Of a stretch of 49,341 nt of DNA, positions 4,001 through 19,715 are shown in pieces (the stretch's first letter is position 1; every line of letters starts with the position of its first letter). The position numbers and the translations under genes are program-made. The stretch covers positions 1-49,341 of the forward strand of contig JAAYVH010000054.1 of assembly GCA_012517255.1 (NCBI GenBank). The letters are read 5' to 3'. Under the pieces are notes generated by a model. It was not told where the DNA came from. It did no database searches and worked only from the letters and a program-made list of their open reading frames with translations. This DNA comes from Chthonomonadales bacterium. Lineage in GTDB: Bacteria; Armatimonadota; Chthonomonadetes; Chthonomonadales; CAJBBX01.

Positions 4001-4944
4001 GCTGGCGCGATATCGCTGTGGGGATCACGCGCTCTGCCATGTACCAGCAGTCCGACAGTCCCGACCTGCTCACGCTATGGCCAGATTCCCTCCACACGAT
4101 CACGGGCGTACGTGCTGCGTGGGAGTTTGCGCCGCGGCAGATCCTCAAGAACGTCACGTGGTGGCTGGGATGGCCGGAAATGCCGCTGACCGTGCGCGCC
4201 AAGACGCCGGATGGTCGGATCATCCGGGTGAGTGGCCTGGGCCACATCGGCGAAGTGAGGGCGTCCGGCAACACGCTCTCGGTGCGGGTTCAGCACCCGT
4301 CGCGGGGACGGGGCAGCGTGCTCATCGCGGGTGTGAGTGCGCCCTCCGAGGTGCGAATGGGTGACCAGCAAGTGCCCCGAGTGTCGTCGCGCATCGTGGC
4401 CGGCAGACCCGGATGGCGCTATGATCCGCGGTTAAGGGCGGTTGCCGTGCACATCCCGCATGGGGGCGACGCGGTTATCCGCCTGAGCGGGATCCGCGCA
4501 GCCGACCCTGATCTCGCGGTTGCTCGCGTGGATCGCCTATCGTTCGAGTTTGATGACGGCTTCGAAGGTTGGTCTGCCCAGAATGACACCGCGGAACTGG
4601 AAGTGCGGGACGGGCAGCTCCAAGGGCGTTCCTCTGGCGGTGACCCTTTCCTCGTTAGGCCAAACTGCCACATTATCGGCAGCGATATCCGTGAGGTCGT
4701 CGTTCGGATCCGCGCCGACGGTCATGGCGGTGGACAGTTCTACTGGACCACGGCTGCATCGCCGGCGTTCGACGAGCAGAAAGTCTTTCCCTTCACCTTC
4801 CCGGCGGACGGCGAATGGCACGAGGTTTCCGTGCCTGTGACGAATCACCCTCATTGGCGTGGGCAGATCGTGACCGGTTTGCGGATTGACCCTGTGAATG
4901 CAGCCAACGTGAGCTTCGCGATAGACTGGGTGCGCGCGCGATGA
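1012..4944 (+). CDS. Large exported multidomain protein, probable six-hairpin glycoside hydrolase/lyase
   Basis: The start is the ATG at 1012: it has GGAGG at 999-1003 and opens a signal peptide (MRSVMCAITLALVLHAAAIA) directly followed by a mature N-terminus. The frame is open further upstream to 673, but that part overlaps the acetyltransferase gene. The 1,310-residue product has, in order: a jelly-roll carbohydrate-binding-like domain (about 20-190, beginning NPVTNGGFEVLD), two CARDB-like beta domains (about 195-390), a beta-sandwich region (400-680), an alpha-helical region resembling an (alpha/alpha)6 toroid (700-1060, with helices such as TPDILAAADAVDAYLEAYWY), a beta domain, and a C-terminal jelly-roll (1175-1310, FEFDDGFEGWSAQND through IDPVNAANVSFAIDWV). 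The architecture suggests a secreted polysaccharide-active enzyme, but I recognise no named GH or PL family and cannot place catalytic residues. It overlaps the next gene by ATGA. Confidence 0.75.
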   Translation: MRSVMCAITLALVLHAAAIADNPVTNGGFEVLDSAYFPRDWSPVGAGVEVTTEARSGRYALRINRMASKPMPAETGLNRGWAPGGAPGAMLEQTKGTLRAWIKVRSASPDATISLVVIPMGRSGVEDTGEMRAMRNVPNEYAGDGTWHELRLAYDYSARQSVRWVHVGMRLVGGPVDVVVDDMELLEGPVPILELEKVHVYPDKADPAARAMLTATVANEGTMPSGPVSVVVHLPDGISATGPADPIELVPGDGKTLRWQLRGKLAPGRVVIRATAATGVAERVVRLEPRMEIYSALLRPGIVAPRAAARLAVTLWNRGTASSGEVRVELRTFGGVRASDSVLVFAPIPPGRRAVREIEVRAPTVASLAGGVECRIRGAADGFEPVRVSLETTDAVRSRPVPALAGVQLRTGADRTMADFGQSSSRAPLARMPHLGRITARLPNGRVQTLTARYGAPTRSGNVLTLRSVQRDSAGATWSFTAAFTRLSSRATRLTIAVSTDRQRRVALFEGPMLLVGEGAYGSLKSEAIFPGLEWLVDDEVSSSDLDILASHPDRPRYAPHPNKVTIPAMAVSGRFGTAALLWSAADRWDGQHDRPQPVFASPDRIGGIAAHRLGLIAPSPVELDRSARGGLVREAHYTREAAAADALRDIILRAGQELRLSAVLYAGPSGSSALDGVEEWFAWHRPAAPAPAPRGSDREQVAWSMEAYLRTLWSGPDTGWYPYLLGPAIWRRPALNPTYAYDLLQAVRLLPEDPRRQAWEDRLRSAGFMAPADTETAERVPTAEDLQFAEGDPVTFLIAHANASLELISAQAPDGSYSFDADRRDAGVFKGYDFHELGEPGAVEIGLIAAKAYQLLQIARIVGDRSFYEAGVRSLNRMERYRVPRAAQVWEVPVHTPDILAAADAVDAYLEAYWYSGERKWLERARIWARRGLPFVYFWNAPGKLWMRYGSIPVFGASQMRGSWFGNVVQWNGLRYAFALLKLYRHDPEARYGGLSWRDIAVGITRSAMYQQSDSPDLLTLWPDSLHTITGVRAAWEFAPRQILKNVTWWLGWPEMPLTVRAKTPDGRIIRVSGLGHIGEVRASGNTLSVRVQHPSRGRGSVLIAGVSAPSEVRMGDQQVPRVSSRIVAGRPGWRYDPRLRAVAVHIPHGGDAVIRLSGIRAADPDLAVARVDRLSFEFDDGFEGWSAQNDTAELEVRDGQLQGRSSGGDPFLVRPNCHIIGSDIREVVVRIRADGHGGGQFYWTTAASPAFDEQKVFPFTFPADGEWHEVSVPVTNHPHWRGQIVTGLRIDPVNAANVSFAIDWVRAR

Positions 4945-5498
4945 TCCGATGCCAATGGGCTGAAGGCGATCCACTGATGGAGCGATACCACGACGAGGAG
5001 TGGGGAGTTCCGCTGCACGATGATCGGAAACTCTTCGAGTACCTGGTGCTCGATGGGGCGCAGGCCGGACTGAGCTGGCTGACGATTCTGCGAAGGCGGG
5101 AGGGATACCGGCAGGCGTTCGCCGGATTTGATCCCGGCGCTGTTTCTGCGTTTGGCGACGATGACATCCAACGGCTGCTGCGCGATTCGGGCATCGTGCG
5201 CAATCGCGCGAAGATCCTTTCGGCGATCAGCAACGCGCGGCGCTTCCTCGAGGTCCAGGCCGAGTTCGGGAGCTTCGATGCCTACATCTGGGGGTTCGTA
5301 GGCGGGCGCACGATACGGAATGCGTGGCGAACCATGGGCGAGCTGCCCGCAACGTCACCTCAGTCGGAGGCCATGAGCCGCGACCTGGTGCGCAGGGGGT
5401 TCACGTTCGTCGGTCCCACTATCTGCTACGCGTTCATGCAGGCGGCCGGGCTTGTGAACGATCACACCACCGACTGCTACAGGTACAGCCAGCTATGA
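4941..5498 (+). CDS. tag: DNA-3-methyladenine glycosylase I
   Basis: Removes 3-methyladenine from alkylated DNA, the first step of base excision repair. The 185-residue length matches the family. The four zinc-snap ligands sit at the same positions as in E. coli Tag: Cys4, His17, His175 and Cys179. YHDEEWGVPLHDD, GAQAGLSW and RGFTFVGPTICYAFMQA are family signatures. One deviation: residue 38, the Glu that contacts the damaged base in E. coli Tag, is Asp here (LVLDGAQAG). The ATG overlaps the stop of the upstream gene as ATGA, and the stop overlaps the next start the same way, so the three genes are probably translated together. The DNA repair role does not relate obviously to either neighbour. 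Confidence 0.96.
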   Translation: MIRCQWAEGDPLMERYHDEEWGVPLHDDRKLFEYLVLDGAQAGLSWLTILRRREGYRQAFAGFDPGAVSAFGDDDIQRLLRDSGIVRNRAKILSAISNARRFLEVQAEFGSFDAYIWGFVGGRTIRNAWRTMGELPATSPQSEAMSRDLVRRGFTFVGPTICYAFMQAAGLVNDHTTDCYRYSQL

Positions 5499-6709
5499 AG
5501 TCCACCACGCCCGCCGTCGTCATGCCTCGCGCGTTGCCCGACAGGACACTGCAGCGCATTCGGCGCGCCTTTCCCGTGCTCAAGCGTGTGACCTACCTGA
5601 ACTCGGGCACCTATGGACCCATGCCACTTCCGGCTCTGCGCGCGTACCTTAGCGCCATGAGCGAGCTCGAACGAGACGGCGTGGCGTGCGCACGTCCTCT
5701 CGCCGCCGAAGCCGAGGAGTTGAGGGCAGCGTTGGCACGCCTGATCGGTGCTCAACCAGCTGAGGTGGCGTTCACAGGCAACTCGACGGATGGCCTGAAC
5801 ATAGTCCTTGCAGGTACGGACTGGTGTGCCGGTGACGAGGTGATCACCACCGATGAGGAGCACGAAGCTCTCCTTCATCCGTTGCTTTACCTGCAGCGAA
5901 TCCGCAGCATACGGGTGCATCGGGTCTCAGTCACCCATGAGCCCGAGGCCATGATGGCTCGCCTAGATGGCGTTCGGTCAGGACGGACCCGTCTGCTGGC
6001 GTTCAGCCATGTCACCTGTGAATCCGGCGCCCGTCTGCCCGCCGCAGAGATGTGCGCCTGGGCCCGTAGATATGGCATCAGGACCTTGGTTGATGTCGCG
6101 CAGTCGCTGGGAGCGACCCCGGTGGATGTCACAACGATCGGCTGCGACTGCATGGCCGCCAACGGCCACAAGTGGCTGCATGGGCCGACCGGAACGGGCT
6201 TCGTCTATGTACGCGCCGACCGAATCGAGGAGATCCGACCCGCCCACGTGGGCGCCGGATCGCTCGAACGCGCTGATGCTGCGTCGGGACTGGCGGAACC
6301 GTGGTCGACCGCGTCGCGGTTCGAGTTCGGCACCAGATCGTGGGCCCGGGCAGCCGGATGGCTTGCCAGCTTGCGGTGGCTGGAGCGCATAGGCCAGAAT
6401 CGGGTAGTGGCCCACATGCTCGCGATGGGAGATCAAGCCATCGCCATGCTGCGGGACTGTGAAGGAGCGGAGCTTCTAACGCCAACAGCGCCTGGAGGCC
6501 GTGCAGGATTGGTTACAGTCTCGTTTCGAGACCACGATGCGGGCGCAATCGGGGAGCGTCTCTCTCGTGACCATGGAATCGTAACCCGTCACGTGCCACA
6601 CTACAATGCGCTCCGTTTCTCTATGTCACACTTCACGAGCGCAGACGACATCGCCCATCTCGGGGCGGGGCTCAGACATGCGCTTGGCGGCCAAGCCTCA
6701 AGAAACTGA
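5495..6709 (+). CDS. Class V aminotransferase (cysteine desulfurase / isopenicillin N epimerase-like)
   Basis: PLP-dependent fold-type I enzyme of 404 residues. The N-terminus has the family's VTYLNSGTYGPMP motif, which contacts the cofactor; the central part reads LVDVAQSLGATPVDV followed by the Schiff-base lysine Lys226 in NGHKWLHGPTGTGFVYV. This places it with the class V group that includes isopenicillin N epimerases, kynureninase-like enzymes and cysteine desulfurases. There is no obvious reactive cysteine loop of an IscS type, so sulfur transfer is not assured. The start is the ATG at 5495 inside the ATGA overlap with tag; the frame is open further upstream but that part is tag read out of frame. 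The substrate is unknown. Confidence 0.88.
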   Translation: MKSTTPAVVMPRALPDRTLQRIRRAFPVLKRVTYLNSGTYGPMPLPALRAYLSAMSELERDGVACARPLAAEAEELRAALARLIGAQPAEVAFTGNSTDGLNIVLAGTDWCAGDEVITTDEEHEALLHPLLYLQRIRSIRVHRVSVTHEPEAMMARLDGVRSGRTRLLAFSHVTCESGARLPAAEMCAWARRYGIRTLVDVAQSLGATPVDVTTIGCDCMAANGHKWLHGPTGTGFVYVRADRIEEIRPAHVGAGSLERADAASGLAEPWSTASRFEFGTRSWARAAGWLASLRWLERIGQNRVVAHMLAMGDQAIAMLRDCEGAELLTPTAPGGRAGLVTVSFRDHDAGAIGERLSRDHGIVTRHVPHYNALRFSMSHFTSADDIAHLGAGLRHALGGQASRN

Positions 6710-6723
6710 GGGAGCTGATTACC

Positions 6724-8040
6724 ATGAGCGAAGACGAGAAGAAGCCGCTTCGATCCTCGAGGGACGAGGATGCCGGACAACAGGACTTAACGGACCGCTG
6801 GCTGGCGTGGCAGCAATCGGCCGATGGCGATGCGGAGCCGGCAGTAGACAAGAAGAAGAAGCGGGATGAACAACATCGCGCGGAACGTCGCGCCGAAAGA
6901 GAAGCCAAGGCCCTGGCCAAACAGCGAGAGCGGGAGCTAGCGCGTGCTGCGCGTGAAGAGAGAGCTCGACGGAAGCGTGAGGAACGCGAGCTGGCGCGGT
7001 TGGCGTCTCAGTCTGAACGGGCGCTCATACGTGAACGGCTCGCGGGCGTTCTTGGCACGATCGCCTCGGCTCTCGCGGTCTATCGCGAAGGTGGTCCCTT
7101 TGAAGTCATCCGAGCAGCCTACAGGCGCCGATGGGTGGTAGTGACATCGCTGTGCTTACTCGCGGTGATCTCGGCGGTGGTTGGCGCTCTCATCATGCGG
7201 ACCCGGCACCGCCGCTATCTCACAGCCACTCTGGTTGCAGTCAACGGCGTACGGATCCTACGTTCGGACCTCAACGACGAACTGTTTCGGCGGTATGGTT
7301 CGTCGACCCTGAACTCCATGATACAAAGAGAGATCCGGCGGCAATTCCTGAAGAAGCATGGCGCGATCGCATCGGACCAGCAGGTGGATGAGAGGCTTCG
7401 GTTCGAGGCGCGATCTCCGGAGTTCGCTCCCATCCTTGAGAAGGCTGGCAAGTCGGAGCCCGAGTACCGCGAGTCCTTGGCGCGCGTGCTCAGTGAGCTC
7501 AACCTGGTTAGCAAAGGCGTCGACGTTACCGAGGCTGAGATGCGAGAGTATTACGACCGCAACGCGAGCCCTAACAATCCGCGGGCTCTGTTCTACTCTC
7601 CCGAGGTGGTTACGCTCGCGGTGATTGCTGCGCCGAATCGGGCTACTGCGGAGAAGGCGAAGGCCGCGCTCAACGCCGGACTGGATTGGGCGAGCGCGGC
7701 TCGGCAGTATAGCGTGGATGATTCGGCGGAAACCGGCGGGATCATGCAGCCGTTTGCGTTGGGGCGCTCAGTCACTGCCATCAGCAAGGGGCTGGATGCG
7801 GTAGGCCGAAAGCTTGAGAAGGGGCAACAGGCAGGTCCTCTGCAGCTCGGCAACCTGTGGTGGCTTGTTCGGTGTCTGGAGCGACGGCCTGCGCAGAAAC
7901 GTACGTACGAGGAAGTCAAAGAGACCGTGCGCATCCTCGCGCGCGCAGCCAAGGGCGAGCAGGCGAATGGCAGGCGGCTGGCGCAGGAGTACGAGGAGTT
8001 CCGGAAGAAGGCCAACATTCAGACGTTCCTAACCCGCTGA
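6724..8040 (+). CDS. Membrane-anchored parvulin-type peptidyl-prolyl isomerase (SurA/PrsA-like)
   Basis: Likely extracytoplasmic folding chaperone of 438 residues. Residues 1-105 are extremely charged (Arg/Lys/Glu-rich, predicted coiled coil, cytoplasmic side). A membrane helix follows at about 139-159 (VVTSLCLLAVISAVVGALIM). Then comes a SurA-N-like helical region (VAVNGVRILRSDLNDELF at about 172-189), and a PpiC/parvulin domain from about 297 containing VVTLAVIAAPNRATAEKAKA and DWASAARQYSVDDSAETGG. A final helix packs as in SurA. The order gives a type II membrane protein with the catalytic part outside the cytoplasm. GGAG at 6711-6714 precedes the ATG. The long charged cytoplasmic arm is unusual for PrsA or SurA. 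The gene ends 50 nt before the glycyl radical enzyme gene; a functional link is not evident. Confidence 0.85.
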   Translation: MSEDEKKPLRSSRDEDAGQQDLTDRWLAWQQSADGDAEPAVDKKKKRDEQHRAERRAEREAKALAKQRERELARAAREERARRKREERELARLASQSERALIRERLAGVLGTIASALAVYREGGPFEVIRAAYRRRWVVVTSLCLLAVISAVVGALIMRTRHRRYLTATLVAVNGVRILRSDLNDELFRRYGSSTLNSMIQREIRRQFLKKHGAIASDQQVDERLRFEARSPEFAPILEKAGKSEPEYRESLARVLSELNLVSKGVDVTEAEMREYYDRNASPNNPRALFYSPEVVTLAVIAAPNRATAEKAKAALNAGLDWASAARQYSVDDSAETGGIMQPFALGRSVTAISKGLDAVGRKLEKGQQAGPLQLGNLWWLVRCLERRPAQKRTYEEVKETVRILARAAKGEQANGRRLAQEYEEFRKKANIQTFLTR

Positions 8041-8090: not shown

Positions 8091-10475
8091 GTGAACGAAC
8101 GGGTATGCAGACTGCGGGCCGCGAGCCTCGAAGCAGTCCCAAGTATCTCCACGGAGAGGGCGGAGCTGCTGACCGCCTTTGATGCCGCTGCGCCGGAAGC
8201 TCCGGTTCCGATCAGGCGCGCACGGGCGTTCTACCATCTGATGGCGAGCAAGACGATCCATATTGGCGAGGACGAGCTGATAGTCGGCGAGCGGGGACCT
8301 TACCCGAAGGCCACGCCAACCTATCCCGAACTGTGTTGCCATAGCCTCGAAGACCTCGATCTGTTGCACTCCCGGGCGAAGATACGCTATGACGTATCGC
8401 CTGAGGCGCGGCGCGTGTACGAGGAGCGGATCATCCCGCACTGGCGCGGACGGGCTATGCGCGACGTAATCTTCGCCTGCATGTCCGACGAGTGGAAGGC
8501 AGCGTATGACGCCGGCGTGTTCACAGAGTTCATGGAGCAACGCGCGCCCGGCCATACGGTGCTGGACGGGAAGATATATCAGCGCGGACTGCTGGACTTC
8601 CGGCAAGCCATCGAGAGACATCTGGACCGGCTGGACTTTGTGGGGGACCCAGAGGCCTTCGACAAGCATGTCGAGCTCACGGCCATGGCGATCAGCATTG
8701 ATGCCGTGCTTCTGTTCGCGTCGCGCCACGCGGCCCTCGCCCGACAGACGGCCGACTCTCCGGGCATCGCTGCCGACAGGGCGCGCGAGCTGCTGCGGAT
8801 TGCCGATGTGTGCGAGCGAGTGCCTGCAAAGCCGCCGCGCGACTTCCACGAGGCGCTTCAGGCGTACTGGTTCTGCCATCTCGGGGTCATTACCGAGCTG
8901 AACACGTGGGACTCGTTTTGCCCCGGTCGTCTGGATCAGCATCTGTGGCCGTTCTATCGAGCCGGTCTGGCCAACGGGACGTTGACCGAAGAGGCTGCGC
9001 GCGAACTCCTTCAGTGCTTCTGGGTGAAGTTCAATAACCAGCCGGCGCCGCCGAAGGTGGGTGTGACAGCCGCAGAGAGCGGCACGTACACCGATTTCTG
9101 CAACATCAACTCAGGCGGACTGACGCCCGCTGGATCGGACGCAGTCAACGATCTGACGTACCTGATCCTCGATGTGATTGACGAAATGCGGCTGCTTCAG
9201 CCGAGCTCCAACATCCAGGTGAGCTGCAAGAATCCGGATCGGTTCATCGAGGCCGCTGCGCGCATCATCCGGAAGGGGTGGGGGCAGCCGTCCGTTTTCA
9301 ACGCCGACGTGGTGGTTGAGGAGCTTCTTCGACAGGGTAAGGCCATCGAGGACGCTCGTGGAGGCGGGACAAGCGGCTGCGTAGAGGCTGGCGCGTTCGG
9401 CAAGGAAGCCTACATTCTCACCGGGTACTTCAATATGCCCAAGGTGCTCGAGATCATGGTCAACCGCGGCGTCGACCCGAGGACCGGCAAACGCCTCGGC
9501 CCCGACACGGGCGATCCTCGCGATATGGCGTCGTTCGATGATGTCATGCGCGCGTTTCGGGCGCAGATGGAGCATTTCGTGGGCATCAAGCTCCGAGGCA
9601 ACCATGTGATCGAGCGGCTCTATGCCACCCGCATGCCCGCGCCGTTCTTGTCGGTGCTGGTGGATGACTGCATCGAGCGGGGGCGCGACTATCACGCAGG
9701 CGGCGCTCGCTACAACACCAGCTATATTCAGGGTGTCGGCCTCGGCACCATTACGGACTCGCTCGCCGCCATTCGTCTCAACGTCTATGAGGAGCCCATG
9801 CTGGGGCTCGCTCGGCAGAACGCCATGGAGCGACTGCTCGGTGCGCTTGCAGCCGATTTCGCCGGTGACGACGAAGTTCGCGGCACGCTGGTGCACCGGA
9901 GCCCGAAGTACGGCAATGACGATGAGCGTGCCGATGAGGTGATGCGCGCGGTCTTCGACATCTACTACGACCTCATTAACGGGAAGCCCAACACGCGGGG
10001 CGGCTCCTACCACGTGGACCTCCTGCCCACAACCTGCCACGTGTATTTCGGATCGGTGACGGGCGCTACGCCGGACGGACGGCATGCGGGCGAGCCGCTT
10101 TCGGAAGGCATATCGCCGGTTCAGGGAGCCGACCGCAAAGGACCCACTGCCGTGGTTCGTTCGGCGGCAAAGATGGACCATGCTCGAACCGGCGGCACTC
10201 TGCTCAATCTGAAGTTTCATCCATCTGCCCTGAGGGGCGACGACGGCATCCGCCGGTTGCGCGATCTCATTCGCACGTACTTCAGGCTCGGAGGCCATCA
10301 CATTCAGTTCAATGTCGTGAGCGCCGACGTCTTGCGGGATGCCAAACGGCACCCGGAGAAACATCGCGACCTGATTGTGCGAGTAGCCGGCTACAGCGAC
10401 TACTTCTGCGACTTGAGTGAGGCGCTGCAGAACGAGATCATTGCCAGAACCGAGCATGAGTCGTTCGGGTCCTGA
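8091..10475 (+). CDS. Glycyl radical enzyme, HypD/glycerol-dehydratase-type (PFL family)
   Basis: A 794-residue PFL-family enzyme from the GTG at 8091, the first in-frame start after the upstream stop; no strong ribosome site is visible. The active-site loop is GGGTSGCVEAGAFGKEAY, with thiyl Cys430 and, two residues on, Glu432, the C-x-E arrangement used by dehydratases (glycerol, trans-4-hydroxyproline and propanediol enzymes) rather than the C-C pair of true pyruvate formate-lyase. The glycyl loop is RVAGYSDYFCDLSEALQNEI with radical site Gly767, and the chain ends RTEHESF as usual. Segments such as DDCIERGRDYHAGGARYNTS and YIQGVGLGTITDSL are most like HypD from memory; the true substrate is undetermined. 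The enzyme is oxygen sensitive and needs a radical-SAM activase, and none lies in the window. It overlaps the next gene by 20 nt. Confidence 0.9.
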   Translation: MNERVCRLRAASLEAVPSISTERAELLTAFDAAAPEAPVPIRRARAFYHLMASKTIHIGEDELIVGERGPYPKATPTYPELCCHSLEDLDLLHSRAKIRYDVSPEARRVYEERIIPHWRGRAMRDVIFACMSDEWKAAYDAGVFTEFMEQRAPGHTVLDGKIYQRGLLDFRQAIERHLDRLDFVGDPEAFDKHVELTAMAISIDAVLLFASRHAALARQTADSPGIAADRARELLRIADVCERVPAKPPRDFHEALQAYWFCHLGVITELNTWDSFCPGRLDQHLWPFYRAGLANGTLTEEAARELLQCFWVKFNNQPAPPKVGVTAAESGTYTDFCNINSGGLTPAGSDAVNDLTYLILDVIDEMRLLQPSSNIQVSCKNPDRFIEAAARIIRKGWGQPSVFNADVVVEELLRQGKAIEDARGGGTSGCVEAGAFGKEAYILTGYFNMPKVLEIMVNRGVDPRTGKRLGPDTGDPRDMASFDDVMRAFRAQMEHFVGIKLRGNHVIERLYATRMPAPFLSVLVDDCIERGRDYHAGGARYNTSYIQGVGLGTITDSLAAIRLNVYEEPMLGLARQNAMERLLGALAADFAGDDEVRGTLVHRSPKYGNDDERADEVMRAVFDIYYDLINGKPNTRGGSYHVDLLPTTCHVYFGSVTGATPDGRHAGEPLSEGISPVQGADRKGPTAVVRSAAKMDHARTGGTLLNLKFHPSALRGDDGIRRLRDLIRTYFRLGGHHIQFNVVSADVLRDAKRHPEKHRDLIVRVAGYSDYFCDLSEALQNEIIARTEHESFGS

Positions 10476-11493
10476 TCCGGCGTTCATCCTCGGAGTGGAC
10501 GCGGGCGGTACCAAGAGCGAGGCGCTGCTCGCCGATACTGCCGGACGGGTGATCGGATACGGGCTGTGCACGTTCACGGATCCGAGCAGCGGAAGGGGTC
10601 CCGGCGGAAGCGGCAGGACAGGCGACTCCGTGCGGACGGCCGTGTCGCGCGCGCTCAAAGGTTTTGGTGGAAGCGCGACCGGTGACCTGCTCATCATCGG
10701 GAGAGGGCGGTTACCGGAGGGTGCTGTGCCCTCCGGCATGTTCCGCACCGTACGCCACCGTGCCGTCAGCGAGCAAGACGCCGCGCTTGCGCTCGCGGGC
10801 TCATCGGTCGGCGTTGTCGTGCTCGCGGGTACCGGAGCATTAGTGTTCGGCCGAACCGAGGACGGACGTGAGTTGCTGCTCGACGCGCTCGGTCCCTTGC
10901 TGGGCGATGCCGGCAGCGCCTTCGATATTGGGCTCCGCGCCCTGCGCAAGACGGCACGAGCCTCGTGGCATCCGCGCCACGCAACAAGCCTCGACGGGCC
11001 GCTTCAGCGTGCATGCGCGTCGCACGTCGGCGGTCATGCGCGCTTCGATCTCGTCAGCTACATGCTGGCTTACCGGGATCGATCGGAGATCGCTTCGCTT
11101 GCTCGGATCGTTGACGAGCATGCGGAAGCGGGAGATGCGGTGGCCTGTTCTGTCCTGCGAGAGGCTGCCGACGAGATCAGCGAGACACTGTACGATGTCG
11201 TGGAGCGCCTGGACATTCGCAACGCTGAGCTGCCGCTGGTGGCGGCGGGCAGCGTCGCGCGCAAGTCGCGCCTCTACTGGCAGCGTCTGTGCTCTCGGGC
11301 GCGCGAGTTCGCTCCGTTGTTGCGGCCTGTAGTCCCCGAGGTTCCCGACGTGGTGGGCATGGTACTGGCGGGGGCAGACGCCGCAGAGACCGATGCGAGG
11401 TTTGCCGAGAATCTGCGAGCTGGGGTTCGCGCCGCGATGGGAGCGGTTGCCGGCGCCATGGAAAGGGGACACCATGCGATTTCATTATCCTGA
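10456..11493 (+). CDS. BadF/BadG/BcrA/BcrD-type ATPase, N-acetylglucosamine-kinase-like
   Basis: ASKHA-fold protein of 345 residues. The phosphate-1 loop is ILGVDAGGTKSEALLADTAG at the N-terminus; a second nucleotide loop, VVVLAGTGALVFGRTEDG, and the GPLLGDAGSAFDIGLRAL segment are typical of the BadF/N-acetylglucosamine kinase group. There are no cluster-binding cysteines of the 2-hydroxyacyl-CoA dehydratase activators, so a sugar kinase is more likely than a dehydratase activator (inference). The ATG at 10456 lies inside the 3' end of the glycyl radical enzyme gene (20-nt overlap), and the 3' end overlaps the SIS gene by 20 nt, so translation is probably coupled. The two SIS neighbours suggest the product is a sugar phosphate. 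Confidence 0.82.
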   Translation: MSRSGPDPAFILGVDAGGTKSEALLADTAGRVIGYGLCTFTDPSSGRGPGGSGRTGDSVRTAVSRALKGFGGSATGDLLIIGRGRLPEGAVPSGMFRTVRHRAVSEQDAALALAGSSVGVVVLAGTGALVFGRTEDGRELLLDALGPLLGDAGSAFDIGLRALRKTARASWHPRHATSLDGPLQRACASHVGGHARFDLVSYMLAYRDRSEIASLARIVDEHAEAGDAVACSVLREAADEISETLYDVVERLDIRNAELPLVAAGSVARKSRLYWQRLCSRAREFAPLLRPVVPEVPDVVGMVLAGADAAETDARFAENLRAGVRAAMGAVAGAMERGHHAISLS

Positions 11494-12211
11494 AGCGGTG
11501 AGGAAGGTCGTTGCGCACCTCGAGAACACTCAGGCCGAGGCCATAGAGCGTGCGGCCCAGCTTGTGGTGGGCTCCCTGACAGCGAACGGCGCAGTGTTTT
11601 GCTCGGATATCGGCCACGGCATTCAAGGCGACTTCCTGAACCGTGCCGGCGGACTGGCTGCGCTGCAGCCTCTCACCTTCGGTTTGAGCGTGACCGATCC
11701 GGTAGCGCGATGCCGGGCGGAGAGACCTCGCCCGGAGCCCGTCAACCGGGAGATAGAGACTGTGCGTGTAGCGCTGCGCACGGGAAACCTGAGGGCAGGC
11801 GATGTGGTGGTGGCGGGTAGTGTGTCTGGCAGGAACGTGCGGCCCGTCGAGCTCGCTCTCGTATGTCGGGACCTCGGCATCAGGACCATCGGCCTCACTT
11901 CGCTCACGTACACGGCAAGGGTGGAGCCGCTCCATCCCTCAGGGCTGCGTCTGTGCGATGTGGCGGATGTCGTGGTGGACATCGGCGCTCCATATGGCGA
12001 CGCGGCGGTAGACCTGCCAGGCCTCGATGTGACGGTGATGCCGGTCTCGGGCATAGGCTTCGCGGTTGCGGGCTGGATGATCTGGGAGCGAGTGATGACC
12101 ATGATGGTCGACGCCGGCAAGCCTCCGACGGTTTTCATGAGCGTGAACCGGGAGGGCGGGCAGCAGTACTACGAGCGCGCGCGCGAACGGTTCAACGAGT
12201 TGGGCTACTGA
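11474..12211 (+). CDS. SIS-domain protein, paralogue 1 (UPF0309-like)
   Basis: A 245-residue sugar-isomerase (SIS) fold protein. The SIS phosphosugar loop reads VVVAGSVSGRNVRPVELAL, followed by the strand GIRTIGLTSLTYTARVEPLH and the C-terminal VFMSVNREGG. It is clearly paralogous to the next gene; the two share SGRN, GIRTIG-TSL-YTA and VFMS-N--GG. At the N-terminal sugar loop it has CSDIGHGIQGDFLNRAGG where the neighbour has FGASHSFIIAEELVYRTGG, so it has diverged there. The start is the ATG at 11474 with GGAAAGGGGA upstream, 20 nt inside the kinase gene. SIS proteins bind or isomerise amino-sugar phosphates; catalysis is not proven here. A heteromer with the neighbour is possible. Confidence 0.85.
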   Translation: MRFHYPEAVRKVVAHLENTQAEAIERAAQLVVGSLTANGAVFCSDIGHGIQGDFLNRAGGLAALQPLTFGLSVTDPVARCRAERPRPEPVNREIETVRVALRTGNLRAGDVVVAGSVSGRNVRPVELALVCRDLGIRTIGLTSLTYTARVEPLHPSGLRLCDVADVVVDIGAPYGDAAVDLPGLDVTVMPVSGIGFAVAGWMIWERVMTMMVDAGKPPTVFMSVNREGGQQYYERARERFNELGY

Positions 12212-12234
12212 GCCGGCCATAAGGGGGATACACG

Positions 12235-12975
12235 ATGCGATCAGGTATGGCATACGTTGACGCGGTTCGGGACCGACTGGCCGTGCTCCTGGAGTCTCAG
12301 GAAGAGGCGGTTGATCGTGCGGCTGAGCTCATGGCGGAAGCCATCGCCGAAGGACGCAGTCTGTTCGCGTTTGGTGCAAGCCACTCCTTCATCATCGCGG
12401 AAGAGCTCGTGTACCGCACGGGAGGGCTGATGGTGGTGAACCCCATCTATCCGCATGGCATGAACCTCTCGGTCCGTCCGATGACCATGACCTCCCGGCT
12501 CGAGCGCATCGAGGGTCTGGGACGCGAACTGCTGGACGGTTCGCCCGCCAGCCCCGGGGATGTGCTGCTGATCGCCTCGACATCGGGCAGGAATGCCGTC
12601 GCCATTGACATGGCCATTCGGGCGCGCGAGAAGGGCATTCGCACCATAGGGATCACCTCGCTCGCATATACTGCTGGTGTTGTCAGCCGGCATTCCTCGG
12701 GAAAGAAGGTCGCGGATCTGTGCGACATTGTTCTGGACAACGGCGCGCCGCTGGGGGATGCCGCTGTGAGCGTAGCGGGCTTCGGGCAGCCCGTGGGGCC
12801 TCTCTCTACGGTTTTGGGGTGCGCGATCGTCAATGCACTGGTCGCTGAGGTCACCGCCCGTCTGGTTCAGCGCGGCATTGAGCCGCCCGTGTTCATGAGC
12901 GCGAACCTAGACGGCGGCGACGCATACAATGCGCGACTGCTGGAGTCGAACCGAGCGCGCATACACTATATGTAA
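12235..12975 (+). CDS. SIS-domain protein, paralogue 2 (UPF0309 family)
   Basis: A 246-residue SIS-domain protein, a close match to the UPF0309 pattern: FAFGASHSFIIAEELVYRTGG near residue 45, LIASTSGRNAVAIDMAIRAR around 120, GITSLAYTAGVVSRHSSGK, then DNGAPLGDAA and VFMSANLDGGDAYN at the C-terminus. The family is related to the MurNAc-6-phosphate etherase and phosphosugar isomerases, but its members are mostly uncharacterised. A ribosome site (GGGGGA) precedes the ATG, 23 nt after the first SIS gene. It is the last gene of the glycyl-radical cluster; 401 nt without a gene follow. Confidence 0.88.
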   Translation: MRSGMAYVDAVRDRLAVLLESQEEAVDRAAELMAEAIAEGRSLFAFGASHSFIIAEELVYRTGGLMVVNPIYPHGMNLSVRPMTMTSRLERIEGLGRELLDGSPASPGDVLLIASTSGRNAVAIDMAIRAREKGIRTIGITSLAYTAGVVSRHSSGKKVADLCDIVLDNGAPLGDAAVSVAGFGQPVGPLSTVLGCAIVNALVAEVTARLVQRGIEPPVFMSANLDGGDAYNARLLESNRARIHYM

Positions 12976-13376
12976 GGACGGGATGACTGAATCGCTGGCC
13001 CGATGCCCTGACCGCTGCTATTTGGCATCAAAGCAGCAAATAGATTGTCACAAAGCATTGGGTTCGATCCTCTTGTATCATAGAGGAGTTGTGGGCTTAT
13101 GGAGGGACCCCGCCTCCCAATAGAGTTTCGCCGACATCGCGTCATCCGCTCAGTTGGCCGCGCGTACGGGCAGACGGCTCGCTGGTGTGTGACGCGCAAT
13201 GGCATGCGTCGGCATTGCTCGCCGCCTTACGATCCTCCCGTTACGCTCCGCCTGCCCCTAACCCTTGATGACTTGCAGCCATTCACATCTGTGGTGCGTT
13301 GCGGTCGGCGAATGCGCTTTCGCTCGAACATGGCGCGTGCAAGACCCCCCGCGGTGATGACGTACGGGAGCGCAAC
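12976..13376 (+). other. Gene-free stretch upstream of the SARP regulator
   Basis: About 400 nt without a credible gene. A short hairpin-capable run (CTCTTGTATCATAGAG) lies near 13069-13084, and GGGAG at 13366-13370 serves as ribosome site for the next gene. A 94-codon plus-strand frame at 13099-13383 and a 79-codon minus-strand frame have arginine-rich, family-free translations. I could not identify a convincing promoter, terminator with a T-tract, or RNA gene. Confidence 0.5.
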
Positions 13377-16300
13377 ATGCTGACGCAACCCTGGCGCATC
13401 TATCTGCTCGGCACCTTCAGGGTCGTGAGCGGCGATCAGGTCATCACGCGGTGCTCGACACGCAAGACCGAGGAGCTTCTGGCCCTGCTAGCCTACCGGC
13501 TGGGCCAGCAATGCTCGCGGTCTGAGCTCACGGACATGTTCTGGCCGGACTCGGAGATCGAGGCGGGCTACACCAATCTCCGAGGCAGCCTCCTGTCTCT
13601 GCGCCGACAGCTCGAGCCGCCTGGAGTTCCGGCTGGCAGCGTGCTCGTGTCTCACGGTCGCCATGCCATCTCGCTGAATCCGGAAGCGGCGACGTGCGAT
13701 GTGGTGGACTTTCGCAGACTCATCAAGCAGCGACCGACGCACACTCCCGAGCAACGGATGCAACGGCTGCTCGCCGCGATCGAGCTCTACAAGGGCGAGC
13801 TGATGCCGGGACACGATGAGGTATGGATCGAGGACATCCGCCGCTCACTCGCCGAGCAGTTTTTCGAAGCGCTGCGTGAAGTGAGCAACATGATGGCGGC
13901 CACCGGAGAGATCGAACGCGCCATCGAGCACGCGCATCGCGCCGTGATCCAGGACCCGCTCCGCGAGGAGTCGCATTGCGAACTCATGCGTCTCTACGCG
14001 CTAGCAGGCCGTCCGGAGGACGCCGTGCGCGCCTACGAGAACATGGCGCGCCTCTTCGAGCGAGAGGAAATGGATCCGCCGTCGCGCGAGGCCTGGAGTC
14101 TTCTTGAGCAGGCCCGCAACTCGTCGCGTGCGTCCGCCAGGGGCACGGCGCCGGCACGGTCAGCGCCATGGCGTTCAGCGCCTGAACCCCTGGCGGCAGA
14201 GGACGATGACGAGGAGCCCCCGCCATTTCGGCCTGGCCCGGCCCCGGTAGCCGACACGGCTTCTGCCGCCAAACCGCCTCCGGCGATCCCGTCGAGGCGA
14301 CCCGCATCCGGCCCCGAAGCCGGGGCGCTGCAACCAAGCGACGAAGATGACGTGCCCTTCGTCCACCAGCATACGGTGGATTCCGTGCGCCGCAGCGACA
14401 CGGGCATTCCGCTTCAGTTCACGCGGTTCTTCGGTCGAGAGAAGGAACTGCAGCGGATCGATTCACTGGTGCGTTCAGGTCTCGAACGACTCATCACGAT
14501 TATCGGTCCGTGCGGGATTGGCAAGACGCGCCTTTCGGTCGAGTACGCCGCCTTGGCAGCCAGGAGCCTGGATCGCCGCGTCCTGTTCGTGCCGATGGAT
14601 GACCTCCACTCGGCTCCCGCTGCGATGGCGAGGATCGCCGACGGACTCGGGATCACGCTGCGTCCCGGTCAGTCCGATCCGATGAAGCAACTTGCAGACG
14701 AGCTGAGCCTTCGTCCGACCCTGCTGATCCTCGACAATCTCGAACAGCTCGTGGACGAGCTTGCGCCTCTGGTCCATCGGCTGGTGGTCTCGGTTGCATC
14801 ACTGATCGTGGTTGCGACGACGCGTCACGCGCTGGAGCTGTCGGGGGAGCAGCTCGTGCCCCTGGAACCTCTGCCGGTGCCGGAGATCACGGCGCTAACG
14901 CCCGAAGCGCTGATGGCGGTCCCAAGCGTGCAGCTCTTCGTGGACCGGGCGGCGCGTGTCGTGCCCGATTTCGCCGTCACGGCACGGAACGCGCCCGACA
15001 TTGCGGCTGTCTGTCGGGGTCTCGAGGGGCTTCCGTTATCCATCGAGTTGGCAGCCGCCCTGGCGCAGGACCGCACGCCGAAGCAGATGGTGCGCGATCT
15101 CAGCCGCAAGTTCGATTTCCTGGTGAGCCGCAAGCGCGATGTGCCAGACCGCCACGCAACCCTCCGGGCGTGCCTGGAGTGGAGCTACCGATTGCTGCCG
15201 GAGCATCTCACGGAAACGTTCGCGGCGCTGGCCGTGTTTGAGGGCGGCTTTACGATGGAGGCGGCGGAGGCGGTATGCCAGCTCGAGAGGCCGTTCGCTA
15301 CGCTTCAAGAATTGCGTTCCCGATCTCTGATCACGGCTCAGCGCCTGGAAGAGGAGGTCAGCTATGGGATGCTGGACGCTCTGCATGCGTTCGCCGCCGA
15401 GAAACTCCCCGACGACCGTCGGGAGGAGCTCGCACGCAGACATGCGGCGTACTTCGCGGAACTCTGTGCTGAGTCGGAGCCCCACCTGTGGCGCTCGGGA
15501 CAGTCCGAGTGGCTCGTGAGGCTCACGGCGGAGGCGCCCAACATACGGGCTGCGCTCACGTGGTCTCTTGAGCGCGATCCGACGACGGCTATCCGAATAG
15601 GGCGCGATCTGGGCCGCTTCTGGATCGTCAAGGGCTACGGGTCTGACGGTCGCCACTGGCTTCAGCGTTGTGCGGAGGCGGCCAGGGACACGGGGGATCA
15701 GGTGAGCGAAGGCGCGTTGCTCAGCCTGTGCGGCGCCCTGAGCGCCATGGAGGGCGAGTGGGACGAGGGCCTGAGGCAAGCGGACACGGGCGTAGGGCTC
15801 GTCCGAGCGCATGATGATCCCGTCGCGCTTGCGCGGGCTCTCATCAACCTCGGCATCGTACGCCAGCACCGCGGTGAGCTCCGCGACGCACGCGTGGCGT
15901 TCGATGAGGCGCTTGCGCACGCCGAATCGCGAGGCGTTCGGCACGTTGCCGCAGTGGCGATCGGCAACTCCGCCAGCGCTTGCTTGGCGGCAGGTGAGTT
16001 CGCCGACGCACAGGCGCTGGCAGAGCGCGCACTCGGATTGGCCCGGGATCTGGGAGACGACTGGTTATGCTCGATGCTGCTCCTGCACCTGGGTGACATC
16101 GCCTGCGAGCGCTACGATGCGGCGTCGGCGCGCCGTCACTACACCGAGGCTCTGGAGCTTCTCCTCGCGACAGGCGATGTGGTCCACGCTGCCCGGGCGC
16201 TGTGGCAGCTGGCGGCAGTCCTCGCCTACCAGGAGGACCTGAGCGGCGCGGCGTACCTGATCGGGGCCGCAACAGGCATGCAGACAACGCACGGGCTACG

Positions 16301-16451
16301 CCTGGACACTGACGACGATGCTGCGCATCGGGGAACGGTCGAACTGGTCCAAGACCGTCTGGCCGTTGCGGCCTACGAGTCCAATCTTGCGCTCGGGGCG
16401 GATGCCGATCCATCCTCCATCCCGCAATGGCTTGCCGTTAGGGGCAGCTAA
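13377..16451 (+). CDS. SARP/AfsR-like STAND regulator (winged helix-BTAD-NB-ARC-TPR)
   Basis: A 1,024-residue signal-integrating transcription regulator. The order is a winged-helix DNA-binding domain (about 5-100, RIYLLGTFRVVSGD), a bacterial transcriptional activation domain (about 105-245, with WIEDIRRSLAEQFFEALREV), a Pro/Ala-rich linker (250-345), and an NB-ARC NTPase. The NTPase has Walker A GPCGIGKT (Lys383), Walker B TLLILDNLEQL (Asp453) and an arginine loop VVATTRHALELSGEQ. A second winged helix (LEWSYRLLPEHLTETFAALA) and TPR-like repeats (from about 720) follow. STAND proteins are held off by ADP and activated by ligand plus ATP. The start at 13377 has GGGAG 6 nt upstream; the frame is open back to 13299. 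The target is unknown; the exported Ig-like gene next downstream is one candidate. Confidence 0.9.
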   Translation: MLTQPWRIYLLGTFRVVSGDQVITRCSTRKTEELLALLAYRLGQQCSRSELTDMFWPDSEIEAGYTNLRGSLLSLRRQLEPPGVPAGSVLVSHGRHAISLNPEAATCDVVDFRRLIKQRPTHTPEQRMQRLLAAIELYKGELMPGHDEVWIEDIRRSLAEQFFEALREVSNMMAATGEIERAIEHAHRAVIQDPLREESHCELMRLYALAGRPEDAVRAYENMARLFEREEMDPPSREAWSLLEQARNSSRASARGTAPARSAPWRSAPEPLAAEDDDEEPPPFRPGPAPVADTASAAKPPPAIPSRRPASGPEAGALQPSDEDDVPFVHQHTVDSVRRSDTGIPLQFTRFFGREKELQRIDSLVRSGLERLITIIGPCGIGKTRLSVEYAALAARSLDRRVLFVPMDDLHSAPAAMARIADGLGITLRPGQSDPMKQLADELSLRPTLLILDNLEQLVDELAPLVHRLVVSVASLIVVATTRHALELSGEQLVPLEPLPVPEITALTPEALMAVPSVQLFVDRAARVVPDFAVTARNAPDIAAVCRGLEGLPLSIELAAALAQDRTPKQMVRDLSRKFDFLVSRKRDVPDRHATLRACLEWSYRLLPEHLTETFAALAVFEGGFTMEAAEAVCQLERPFATLQELRSRSLITAQRLEEEVSYGMLDALHAFAAEKLPDDRREELARRHAAYFAELCAESEPHLWRSGQSEWLVRLTAEAPNIRAALTWSLERDPTTAIRIGRDLGRFWIVKGYGSDGRHWLQRCAEAARDTGDQVSEGALLSLCGALSAMEGEWDEGLRQADTGVGLVRAHDDPVALARALINLGIVRQHRGELRDARVAFDEALAHAESRGVRHVAAVAIGNSASACLAAGEFADAQALAERALGLARDLGDDWLCSMLLLHLGDIACERYDAASARRHYTEALELLLATGDVVHAARALWQLAAVLAYQEDLSGAAYLIGAATGMQTTHGLRLDTDDDAAHRGTVELVQDRLAVAAYESNLALGADADPSSIPQWLAVRGS

Positions 16452-16725: not shown

Positions 16726-17124
16726 ATGTTCCGTCGCATCGCCATCACCCTGATCGTCGTCTGTGTGTCGCTGTTTGTGTTCGCCGCTCTTGCCGATGAG
16801 CCAGTCCTCGGTATCGGCGGCAAGGTCAAGCCTGTGTCCATCCCATGCGCGGTGTCCATCCAGCCGGATACCGTGGTAGGCGGCGCCACTGTCGAGTGCA
16901 CCGTGACGCTGGATCAGGTCGTCGAGGAAGACCAGGTCGTCTCGGTCGAAACCGACCATCCTGAGGTCTATTCCGGCTTCCCCGAATCGGTGGTCGTGTC
17001 CGCGGGTAACGACAGCGTAACCTTCGACCTGACCACTGTCACGGTCTCCGGATCGGTTGCCACGACGGTGTATGCCTCGTGCAACGGCGGTCAGGCGAGC
17101 GATACCCTTACCGTCACGCCCTAG
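16726..17124 (+). CDS. Small exported Ig-like domain protein
   Basis: A 132-residue protein with a clear signal peptide (MFRRIAITLIVVCVSLFVFA, cut near ALADEP). The mature part is one beta-sandwich of Ig/IPT type, rich in alternating Val/Thr (ECTVTLDQVVEEDQ, VVVSAGNDSVTFDLTTVTV) and ending in ASCNGGQASDTLTVTP. It has three cysteines in the mature part (Cys in IPCAVS, VECTV and ASCNGG), so one disulfide plus a free thiol is possible. GAGGAGG lies about 10 nt before the ATG. There are 274 nt between it and the SARP gene. No family-level function can be given; a surface or matrix adhesin-like role is only a guess. Confidence 0.78.
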   Translation: MFRRIAITLIVVCVSLFVFAALADEPVLGIGGKVKPVSIPCAVSIQPDTVVGGATVECTVTLDQVVEEDQVVSVETDHPEVYSGFPESVVVSAGNDSVTFDLTTVTVSGSVATTVYASCNGGQASDTLTVTP

Positions 17125-17141
17125 AAACTCGGCATACCATC

Positions 17142-18215
17142 ATGGGTCTATATCCCCATTCGCGCGGCCACAGCCGCGCGGGGTACGGCTTCGCCACGCC
17201 AGGAACAGCGGACTTTCGTCTCGATAGCGTGGTCGCGGCGCCGGCGCCATACGAGGAGCGACGCATCACGCGATGGGACAGGGACGACGCACGCCAGTCC
17301 TTGCGCGATCAGGTGCTGACGCATCTGGCCTCGCCCTACGCCGTACTTGTGCTGGACGAGAGCGCGTTTGTCAAAGCCAATGGCAGGTTCGTTGGCGCCC
17401 ATCGCGGCACCGACGGCGGCGGGGTATCGCATCACCTGCAGACCGGGGTGTTCCTCGCCTATGCCGGGCCGAAGGGTAACGGCTATCTCGATCGCGAACT
17501 CTTCTTGCCGCGGCCATGGATAGAGCGCTCGGATCTGCGCCTCTCGTCCGGCGTGCCAGATGGGATCGCCTATTCCACGAGGCCCCAGATGGCGCGGCGC
17601 ATGCTCGAGCGAGCTTTCGAACATCAGATACCGCATCGGTTTGTGGCAGGAAGCATCACGTTCGGCGCAGACAGGGACCTGCGCGCCTGGCTCGAAGAGC
17701 GCCGCGAGGCATACGTGCTTGCGGTGCCTGCGGACATGGCGTTGCTGGTGGACGGGGCCTACCGCTCAGCCGAGGAACTGGCGGCGTCGCTTTCACACCA
17801 CACCCGGGCCTCAGAGGGGCCCGAAGGATGGATGGGAATGCGGCTTCCGTCCGGCGGCGGATCGCGAACAGGCATGCAGGCCGGGGGGCGTGGGGACTGG
17901 CAGCGGTGGATCGTGGCCGAGTGCAAGCCGCGAGGTGCCGAGCCGTCCGACCGGTTTCTCGCGTTTGTGCGGCCCGGAACGTTGCTGGACGACGTGGTAG
18001 ATGCCATCAAGGCGTCTCGCCGGATAAGGGATGGCATGTCCGAGGCGCGCCGAACCGTTGGCCTGGACAGGTTTACCGGCAAGTCGTGGGAAGCATGGTA
18101 CCGACATATGACGGTCACGCTCATGGCCCATACCGTTCTGGGACTGGCGCGTGAACAGCTGGCCGCCGGATCCGACCCACTGAGATCGAGGTTCGATGGC
18201 GACGGCTACGACTGA
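17142..18215 (+). pseudogene. Decayed IS701-type transposase
   Basis: The remaining 357 codons match the catalytic part of IS701-family DDE transposases: PYAVLVLDESAFVK (first Asp, residue 72), TGVFLAYAGPKGNGYLDREL, PDGIAYSTRPQMARRMLERA, RAWLEERREAYVLAVPAD and, near the end, ARRTVGLDRFTGKSWEAWYR preceded by the candidate Glu301. The second catalytic Asp, normally in a V-T-x-D-E-V-Y-G context, is Ser171 (FVAGSITFGADRDLR). The first 50 residues do not resemble the family's N-terminal domain, and there is no ribosome site before the ATG at 17142. I found no flanking terminal inverted repeats. It is therefore probably an inactive remnant, although the intact reading frame leaves domestication open. 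Confidence 0.72.
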
Positions 18216-18402: not shown

Positions 18403-18882
18403 CTACGCGGGAGGACGAAACAGGGGACGGAGGAGGATGGTCAGCGGAACAACCAGCACCATGTTGTAGACGGCTCGGCCCAACGCTCCCGCAAGATAGG
18501 CAACCGCATCGGGCTGTGGAGAGAATGCGAAGAATGTGAGCTCCGCTACGGCGAGCGCGCCGAATCCTGCCGCCGATGCCACCAACAGGCTGTCGCGGAA
18601 CAGCCTGCGTTCGACCATGCCGGTACACCACGCTGCCAACGCCCTGCTGACAGCCAGGCTGCCGAGACCGACGGAGCCAAACGCTCCCAGCAGGCTGCCA
18701 GCGAGCAACCCCAGCCATGCCGCGGAGCCGTCGCCGATCCAGAGCGCCACCGGAACCAGTGCGGCCATGGTCAGATCGGGCCGAGCGCCGGCGATGGCGA
18801 TGCGCGGTCCCAGCGCCATGTCCACGATGAACGCTGCAACGATCACGACGACACCGCGGCCGAGCGCGGTTCCGGGTCTCAT
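18403..18882 (-). CDS. mreD: Rod shape-determining protein MreD
   Basis: A 159-residue polytopic inner-membrane protein with about five hydrophobic helices, including VVVIVAAFIVDMALGPRIAI and the LLAGSLLGAFGSVGLGSL loop-helix typical of MreD. It belongs to the elongasome scaffold that links MreB filaments to peptidoglycan synthesis. It overlaps mreC by 4 nt (ATGA), so it is translated with it. The identification rests on membrane topology, length and position directly after mreC. Confidence 0.88.
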   Translation of the reverse strand: MRPGTALGRGVVVIVAAFIVDMALGPRIAIAGARPDLTMAALVPVALWIGDGSAAWLGLLAGSLLGAFGSVGLGSLAVSRALAAWCTGMVERRLFRDSLLVASAAGFGALAVAELTFFAFSPQPDAVAYLAGALGRAVYNMVLVVPLTILLRPLFRPPA

Positions 18883-19715
18883 CGAAGCACCGCAACCTCT
18901 TCAAGGCGATGAACGGAGGCCGCCTGCCGCACGATGGCGACTTTCGACGAGGTCGCTGCATCGTCGGTGACCCGGGTGACGCTGCCGATCACGAGCCCTT
19001 TCGGGTAGATCCCGCCCGATCCTCCGAGCCCCGATGTAACGATGACATCGCCGGTGCTGATCTCGGCGTCTCGGCTGAGGTAGCTCATCCGGAGCATGCC
19101 GCGTCCGAGTCCGCGACAGATGCCAATGGCTCGGGACTCGCTCCGTTGCACCATGGCTCCCAGGGCGCATCGTGGGTCGGATGCAATCAGCACGACTGAT
19201 GTGGAGTACGCCACGTCCACGGCGTGTCCGAGAACGCCTTCCGGAGCAAGCACGATGGAGCCGTTCCGCAGCCCGTCGCGCTTTCCGCGATCAATCACGA
19301 CGGTTGCCACGTGCGGCGCGGGCGTCATGGCGACAACGCGAGCGGGGAGACGCCGGGGGGTTGGCTCCGTCAGGAAGCCAATCTCCTGCTCGAGCCTCCG
19401 CGCAGTGATCGCGGCTTCACGCAGTTCCTGCGCCTCGGCCCTGAGTCGAGCAAGCTCGCGGCGAAGCCGTACGTTCTCACGCGCCAGGCTTCGGCTGTTG
19501 ACGAGCCACCGTCCTGTGCCGGAAAACCAGTCGGCAACGCCCCCCACGGCACGTATCGCCGGGGATAGGATCGTGCGCGCGGCATTGGTGAACGGGCTCG
19601 ACGCCCCGCGCGACACGGCGGCGTTGTGCCAGACACCCAGGGTGGCGCCGACGACGATCGTCAGAATGAAGGGGAGGTACTTCCTGCGCAGTGCGCTACG
19701 CTCGTCATCGAGCAT
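18879..19715 (-). CDS. mreC: Rod shape-determining protein MreC
   Basis: A 278-residue bitopic protein: a short cytoplasmic arm, one membrane helix (YLPFILTIVVGATLGVWH), a periplasmic coiled coil (about 70-110, ARENVRLRRELARLRAEAQE) and the paired beta-barrel domain with ARVVAMTPAPHVATVVIDRG, GVLGHAVDVAYSTSVVLIAS and DVIVTSGLGGSGGIYPKGL. This is the full family order. It organises the elongasome in the periplasm. It follows mreB after a 75-nt gap and overlaps mreD. Confidence 0.95.
   Translation of the reverse strand: MLDDERSALRRKYLPFILTIVVGATLGVWHNAAVSRGASSPFTNAARTILSPAIRAVGGVADWFSGTGRWLVNSRSLARENVRLRRELARLRAEAQELREAAITARRLEQEIGFLTEPTPRRLPARVVAMTPAPHVATVVIDRGKRDGLRNGSIVLAPEGVLGHAVDVAYSTSVVLIASDPRCALGAMVQRSESRAIGICRGLGRGMLRMSYLSRDAEISTGDVIVTSGLGGSGGIYPKGLVIGSVTRVTDDAATSSKVAIVRQAASVHRLEEVAVLR

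Follow-up and report, generated by a model that had tools for sequence, protein, structure and literature searches.

A probable hydroxyproline dehydratase gene with no adjoining activase and with kinase-like and SIS genes downstream in a Chthonomonadales genome

Glycyl radical enzymes (GREs) are usually described together with a cognate activase. In the window analysed here (the whole stretch of 49,341 nucleotides), a GRE gene without such a neighbour is followed by a trio of genes encoding a kinase-like protein and two SIS proteins (SIS1 and SIS2), which raises the questions of which substrate the GRE acts on, how it is switched on and whether the four genes form one pathway.

The glycyl radical enzyme

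The GRE is encoded on the forward strand, as are all cluster features described below, at positions 8091..10475 (794 aa, GTG start) and contains PFL-like and Gly_radical domains, which scored 720.9 and 123.2 bits in profile searches. As judged from its sequence, it is very probably a trans-4-hydroxy-L-proline dehydratase (HypD). Its score with the HypD equivalog model NF043068 was 1225.6 bits (cut-off 1100), and assignments as a glycerol, choline, sulfopropanediol or PFL-type enzyme were rejected, as all other curated GRE models remained under their cut-offs. The best-matching solved structure was HypD of C. difficile (6vxc; 1007 bits, 54% identity), with glycerol dehydratase as the runner-up (546 bits). 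The roles of the hydroxyproline residues of HypD have been established by structure and mutagenesis (PMC7077986), and all 11 of the active-site residues probed are identical in the aligned window enzyme (R156, H160, D278, K326, S334, D339, F340, C434, E436, Y450 and T645; C. difficile numbering). The thiyl radical Cys within its CxE motif (Cys430-Val-Glu432; 9378..9386) aligns to C434 and E436, and the glycyl radical site Gly767 (10389..10391), which is likewise kept, aligns to G765. Both lie at the positions given in the initial annotation, whose prediction of a dehydratase-type GRE is borne out by the HypD assignment. Six other GREs of the same genome served as an internal control: they keep the Cys, Glu, His160 and Gly residues but lack the hydroxyproline-binding set. 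With this close likeness to C. difficile HypD, the window enzyme differs in its surroundings, where no dedicated activase adjoins and the kinase-like gene and two SIS genes lie behind it.

By the HypD mechanism (PMC7077986), the radical would move from Gly767 to Cys430, whose thiyl form would abstract a C5 hydrogen atom of trans-4-hydroxy-L-proline. The 4-hydroxyl would depart as water, with proton handling by Asp274, Glu432 and His155, and the product, pyrroline-5-carboxylate, would enter proline or glutamate metabolism. The initial annotation had proposed an amino sugar or polyol as the substrate, a tempting reading of the cluster that the HypD assignment corrects; since the enzyme falls cleanly into HypD, in model score and active-site residues alike, the proposal is refuted by the test which that annotation had itself set.

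A single activase in a genome with seven glycyl radical enzymes

Exactly one GRE activase above the TIGR02494 cut-off was identified in the genome from which the window derives (G000), located on contig C87 (C87:13311-14135) and scoring 325.8 bits with this model; none was found within the window, in agreement with the earlier statement that no activase adjoins the GRE. Two candidates for a second activase were rejected, one on contig C206, which is an AmmeMemoRadiSam enzyme scoring above the cut-off of that model, and one on contig C86, which has an NrdG-like look (judged by sequence only). Against NF043069, the model for dedicated HypD activases, the C87 protein scored 281.3 bits (cut-off 425), a cut-off also missed by the HypD-adjacent activase of G006 (350.6). 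Among the 31 genomes of the class, the GRE-bearing and the activase-bearing sets are the same ten, each encoding exactly one activase, and a search of the class genomes with TIGR02493 yielded no second strong activase. These ten single-activase genomes contain seven (G000), four (G008), three (G009), nine (G002, G003 and G004; approximate counts that include short or partial matches) or one (G006, G007, G010 and G017) Gly_radical matches. Across the phylum, activase-bearing genomes carry one to four activases. In a phylogenetic tree, the activases of the six genomes with a trio-linked HypD and of G010 form one clade (100/99), apart from the HypD-adjacent activases. The C87 protein thus resembles the GRE activases of TIGR02494 and differs from the HypD activases of NF043069 in its score, in its separate clade and in being the sole activase in genomes with up to nine GREs.

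In addition to HypD, the genome encodes six further CxE-type GREs (contigs C87, C246, C197, C35 and C54), all of which score below the cut-offs of characterised GRE families, and pairwise identities among all seven GREs are 27-35%. Because no other activase was found, we infer that one activase acts on all of these GREs, and the single C87 enzyme appears to serve seven diverged GREs, HypD among them. We consider it probable, with good confidence, that HypD is switched on in trans by this radical-SAM enzyme. A missed activase, unassembled or of an unrecognised kind, could act on HypD instead, as the assembly is a draft of 327 contigs and a dedicated activase is usual for HypD, as illustrated by two members of this family, G006 and G007, where HypD adjoins a radical-SAM activase. 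This explanation is improbable in view of the other nine class genomes with GREs, which are 92-100% complete and carry one activase each, and of the location of the activase: in five of the six genomes with a trio-linked HypD, no GRE was found on the contig that carries it, the exception being G000, where it adjoins two other GREs. Activation by the shared C87 enzyme therefore remains our preferred reading. The most interesting point of this analysis is that as many as nine highly diverged GREs apparently depend on one activase; given that GREs usually come with a cognate activase, such genomes are natural material for the study of activase recognition. The open-access literature, outside which most subscription papers lie, yielded no pertinent work on shared GRE activases, on GREs in Chthonomonas or on Tat-exported GREs.

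A GRE with a twin-arginine-like N-terminus is encoded in three genomes (L029:351-2603 on contig C35 of the window genome, L219:2257-4509 and L218:2116-4341). These proteins begin with SRREFVK, SRRDFVR or SRRDLIR followed by a hydrophobic stretch and retain the CxE and RIAGWS motifs. TIGR01409 scored above its cut-off only for the protein of G009 (17.2 vs 16.7), just under it for that of G000 (15.7) and more weakly for that of G008 (10.5). A glycyl radical enzyme would be surprising if exported.

Gene order and distribution of the trio

The kinase-like gene (10456..11493) contains a BadF family domain (PF01869; 73.4 bits in the profile search) and most likely starts at the ATG at 10456. It is followed by SIS1 (11474..12211) and SIS2 (12235..12975), both of which exceed the cut-off of the NCBIfam model PRK02947 (167.9 bits vs 135 for SIS1) and match SIS_2 with 63 and 141.7 bits, respectively. 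As the initial annotation had described, a BadF-type protein and two SIS proteins thus lie behind the GRE, and both 20-nt overlaps are present in the DNA, between HypD and the kinase-like gene (10456-10475) and between the latter and SIS1 (11474-11493). Such tight junctions suggest co-transcription of HypD with the trio. Genes for a methyladenine glycosylase, a class-V aminotransferase and a PpiC-type protein are located upstream of HypD (window positions 4941-8040) and could be part of one operon with it; their order is kept in G009, and the latter two are also present in G008.

The order GRE, kinase-like gene, SIS1 and SIS2 occurs in six genomes of three genera within one family (G000, G008, G009, G002, G003 and G004), and its recurrence in the latter five is therefore not due to chance; to this extent the co-conserved set proposed earlier is confirmed. 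In G002, HypD is split into two overlapping frames (contig C85, L106:9705-11908), reflecting a frameshift or an assembly error. G010 contains the trio without HypD. HypD is encoded by 24 of 291 genomes of the phylum. In the 16 of these outside the class, an activase lies near HypD in six and trio genes in none (within a flank of ~1.5 kb, some flanks ending at contig ends), and the other HypD-bearing genomes seen also have no trio adjoining HypD. The trio-linked HypDs form one group (85/91), recovered in 82% of bootstrap trees, and apparently a single event joined HypD to the trio, which is the simplest reading and has moderate support.

An SIS2-based scan of named genomes retained 80 loci, 54 of them close, and the close loci derive from Armatimonadota, Verrucomicrobia, Lentisphaerae, Kiritimatiellae and kin. 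The kinase-like gene, SIS1 and SIS2 were found in this order at 47 of the 54 close loci (seven loci deviate, two of them at contig ends) and HypD at five; no HypD adjoins the trio at 42 of the 47 trio loci. Across the trio loci, no widely conserved further neighbour that would name the pathway was identified. By this gene-neighbourhood evidence, the trio is a separate, widespread and unstudied module independent of HypD, in which a kinase-like protein and two SIS paralogs are conserved over two large bacterial groups. The suggestion of one new four-gene pathway does not hold up against trio loci without an adjacent HypD and HypDs elsewhere without an adjacent trio.

A related possibility is that the GRE is HypD-like with its substrate shifted to another hydroxylated ring or to an amino sugar that the trio produces or consumes, in which case the four genes would still form the single pathway first envisaged. 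The operon-like order in six genomes of three genera and the separate group formed by the trio-linked HypDs could be read in this way. Every residue for hydroxyproline binding or turnover is unchanged, as in HypDs outside the trio, and most trio loci have no adjoining HypD, which makes a shifted substrate very unlikely.

Predicted chemistry of the trio and its relation to HypD

By sequence and by the fold of a confident model (pLDDT 92.6), the closest relatives of the kinase-like protein are MurK and N-acetylglucosamine kinase (NAGK; 2ch5), with MurK as the best fold match (8zo3, E=6.8e-21). It differs from these kinases at the position of the catalytic Asp (D107 in NAGK and D103 in MurK by profile alignment), where 46 of 48 trio members carry Glu, including Glu106 in the window. 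Since this Asp, the catalytic base of such kinases (PMC10465942) and one of their defining features, was tested for and is absent, the protein is not filed as a sugar kinase despite its fold. A role as a BadF-type activator of 2-hydroxyacyl-CoA dehydratases was rejected, as 1hux and 4ehu rank well under MurK and NAGK by fold.

The closest solved relative of SIS2, a UPF0309 protein, is NagS of S. coelicolor (9eol, E=8.2e-76), whose dehydration of GlcNAc-6P to 6P-chromogen I was demonstrated in 2025 (PMC12680351). All nine NagS residues mutated in that study (H53, S54, R64, S91, E94, S119, S121, D179 and N228) are kept in the window SIS2 and, with single exceptions or gaps, across the 54 close SIS2 relatives, in which S54 is kept in 52; the N228 position is Asn throughout. 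In the 26 more distant relatives, most of them from Bacillota, position 54 is Ala. The same study found UPF0309 homologs of 26-36% identity inactive on GlcNAc-6P and limits the activity to Streptomycetaceae (PMC12680351), so that the retained residues are no proof of SIS2 activity. SIS1 is a UPF0309-like protein with an altered sugar site: H53, R64, S119, S121, D179 and N228 are retained, the S91/E94 segment is different and position 54 is Gly in 39 of 52 sequences. The trio differs from the NagS system in having two adjacent paralogs, one without Ser54, and in occurring outside Streptomycetaceae. As the sites of NagS are formed from two monomers (PMC12680351), a heteromer of SIS1 and SIS2 is a natural inference, and the pair is probably of this kind. 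The amino-sugar signature of the trio, together with its NagS-like site, calls into question whether GlcNAc-6P dehydration would be restricted to Streptomycetaceae.

The initial proposal of an amino-sugar connection is thus supported for the kinase-like and SIS genes, as relatives of MurK/NAGK and NagS, and falls for the GRE substrate. We somewhat favour the view that the trio is an amino-sugar-phosphate module, which would probably handle a sugar of the GlcNAc or MurNAc type. Its kinase-like member would make the sugar 6-phosphate, and the SIS1-SIS2 pair would dehydrate this product or eliminate from it. Taken as a whole, the reading that we regard as likely is that of a HypD activated in trans by the shared C87 enzyme and co-transcribed with a separate amino-sugar trio, perhaps so that hydroxyproline and amino sugars are salvaged together. 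More tentatively, and with some doubt, the one activase of the family could be a hub for all of its GREs (one to nine per genome, and in the window genome as diverged as given above, HypD included) that replaced the dedicated HypD activase, with the trio representing an undescribed amino-sugar-phosphate pathway based on a two-paralog NagS-like enzyme outside Streptomyces.

The chances that HypD and the trio are metabolically linked are about even. The two could be functionally unlinked, sharing a promoter by chance and being kept together by descent, a serious competitor to which we assign a somewhat lower probability. The trio has no conserved neighbour of its own, and the cluster lies near mre genes in G000, in G008 and in the genus of G002-G004, and its position is therefore inherited; set against this, the order is held over three genera whose HypDs are only 67-78% identical, with junctions that are still tight. 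In the window, mreC (PF04085) and a gene with weak similarity to mreD are located close to the cluster (18403-19715), and mreC relatives were also found near it in G008, G002, G003 and G004. A SARP-like regulator with BTAD, AAA and TPR parts (13299-16451) has 55% identity to its counterpart in G008, and a DDE_5 transposase-like gene (17079-18215) lies between this regulator and mreD.
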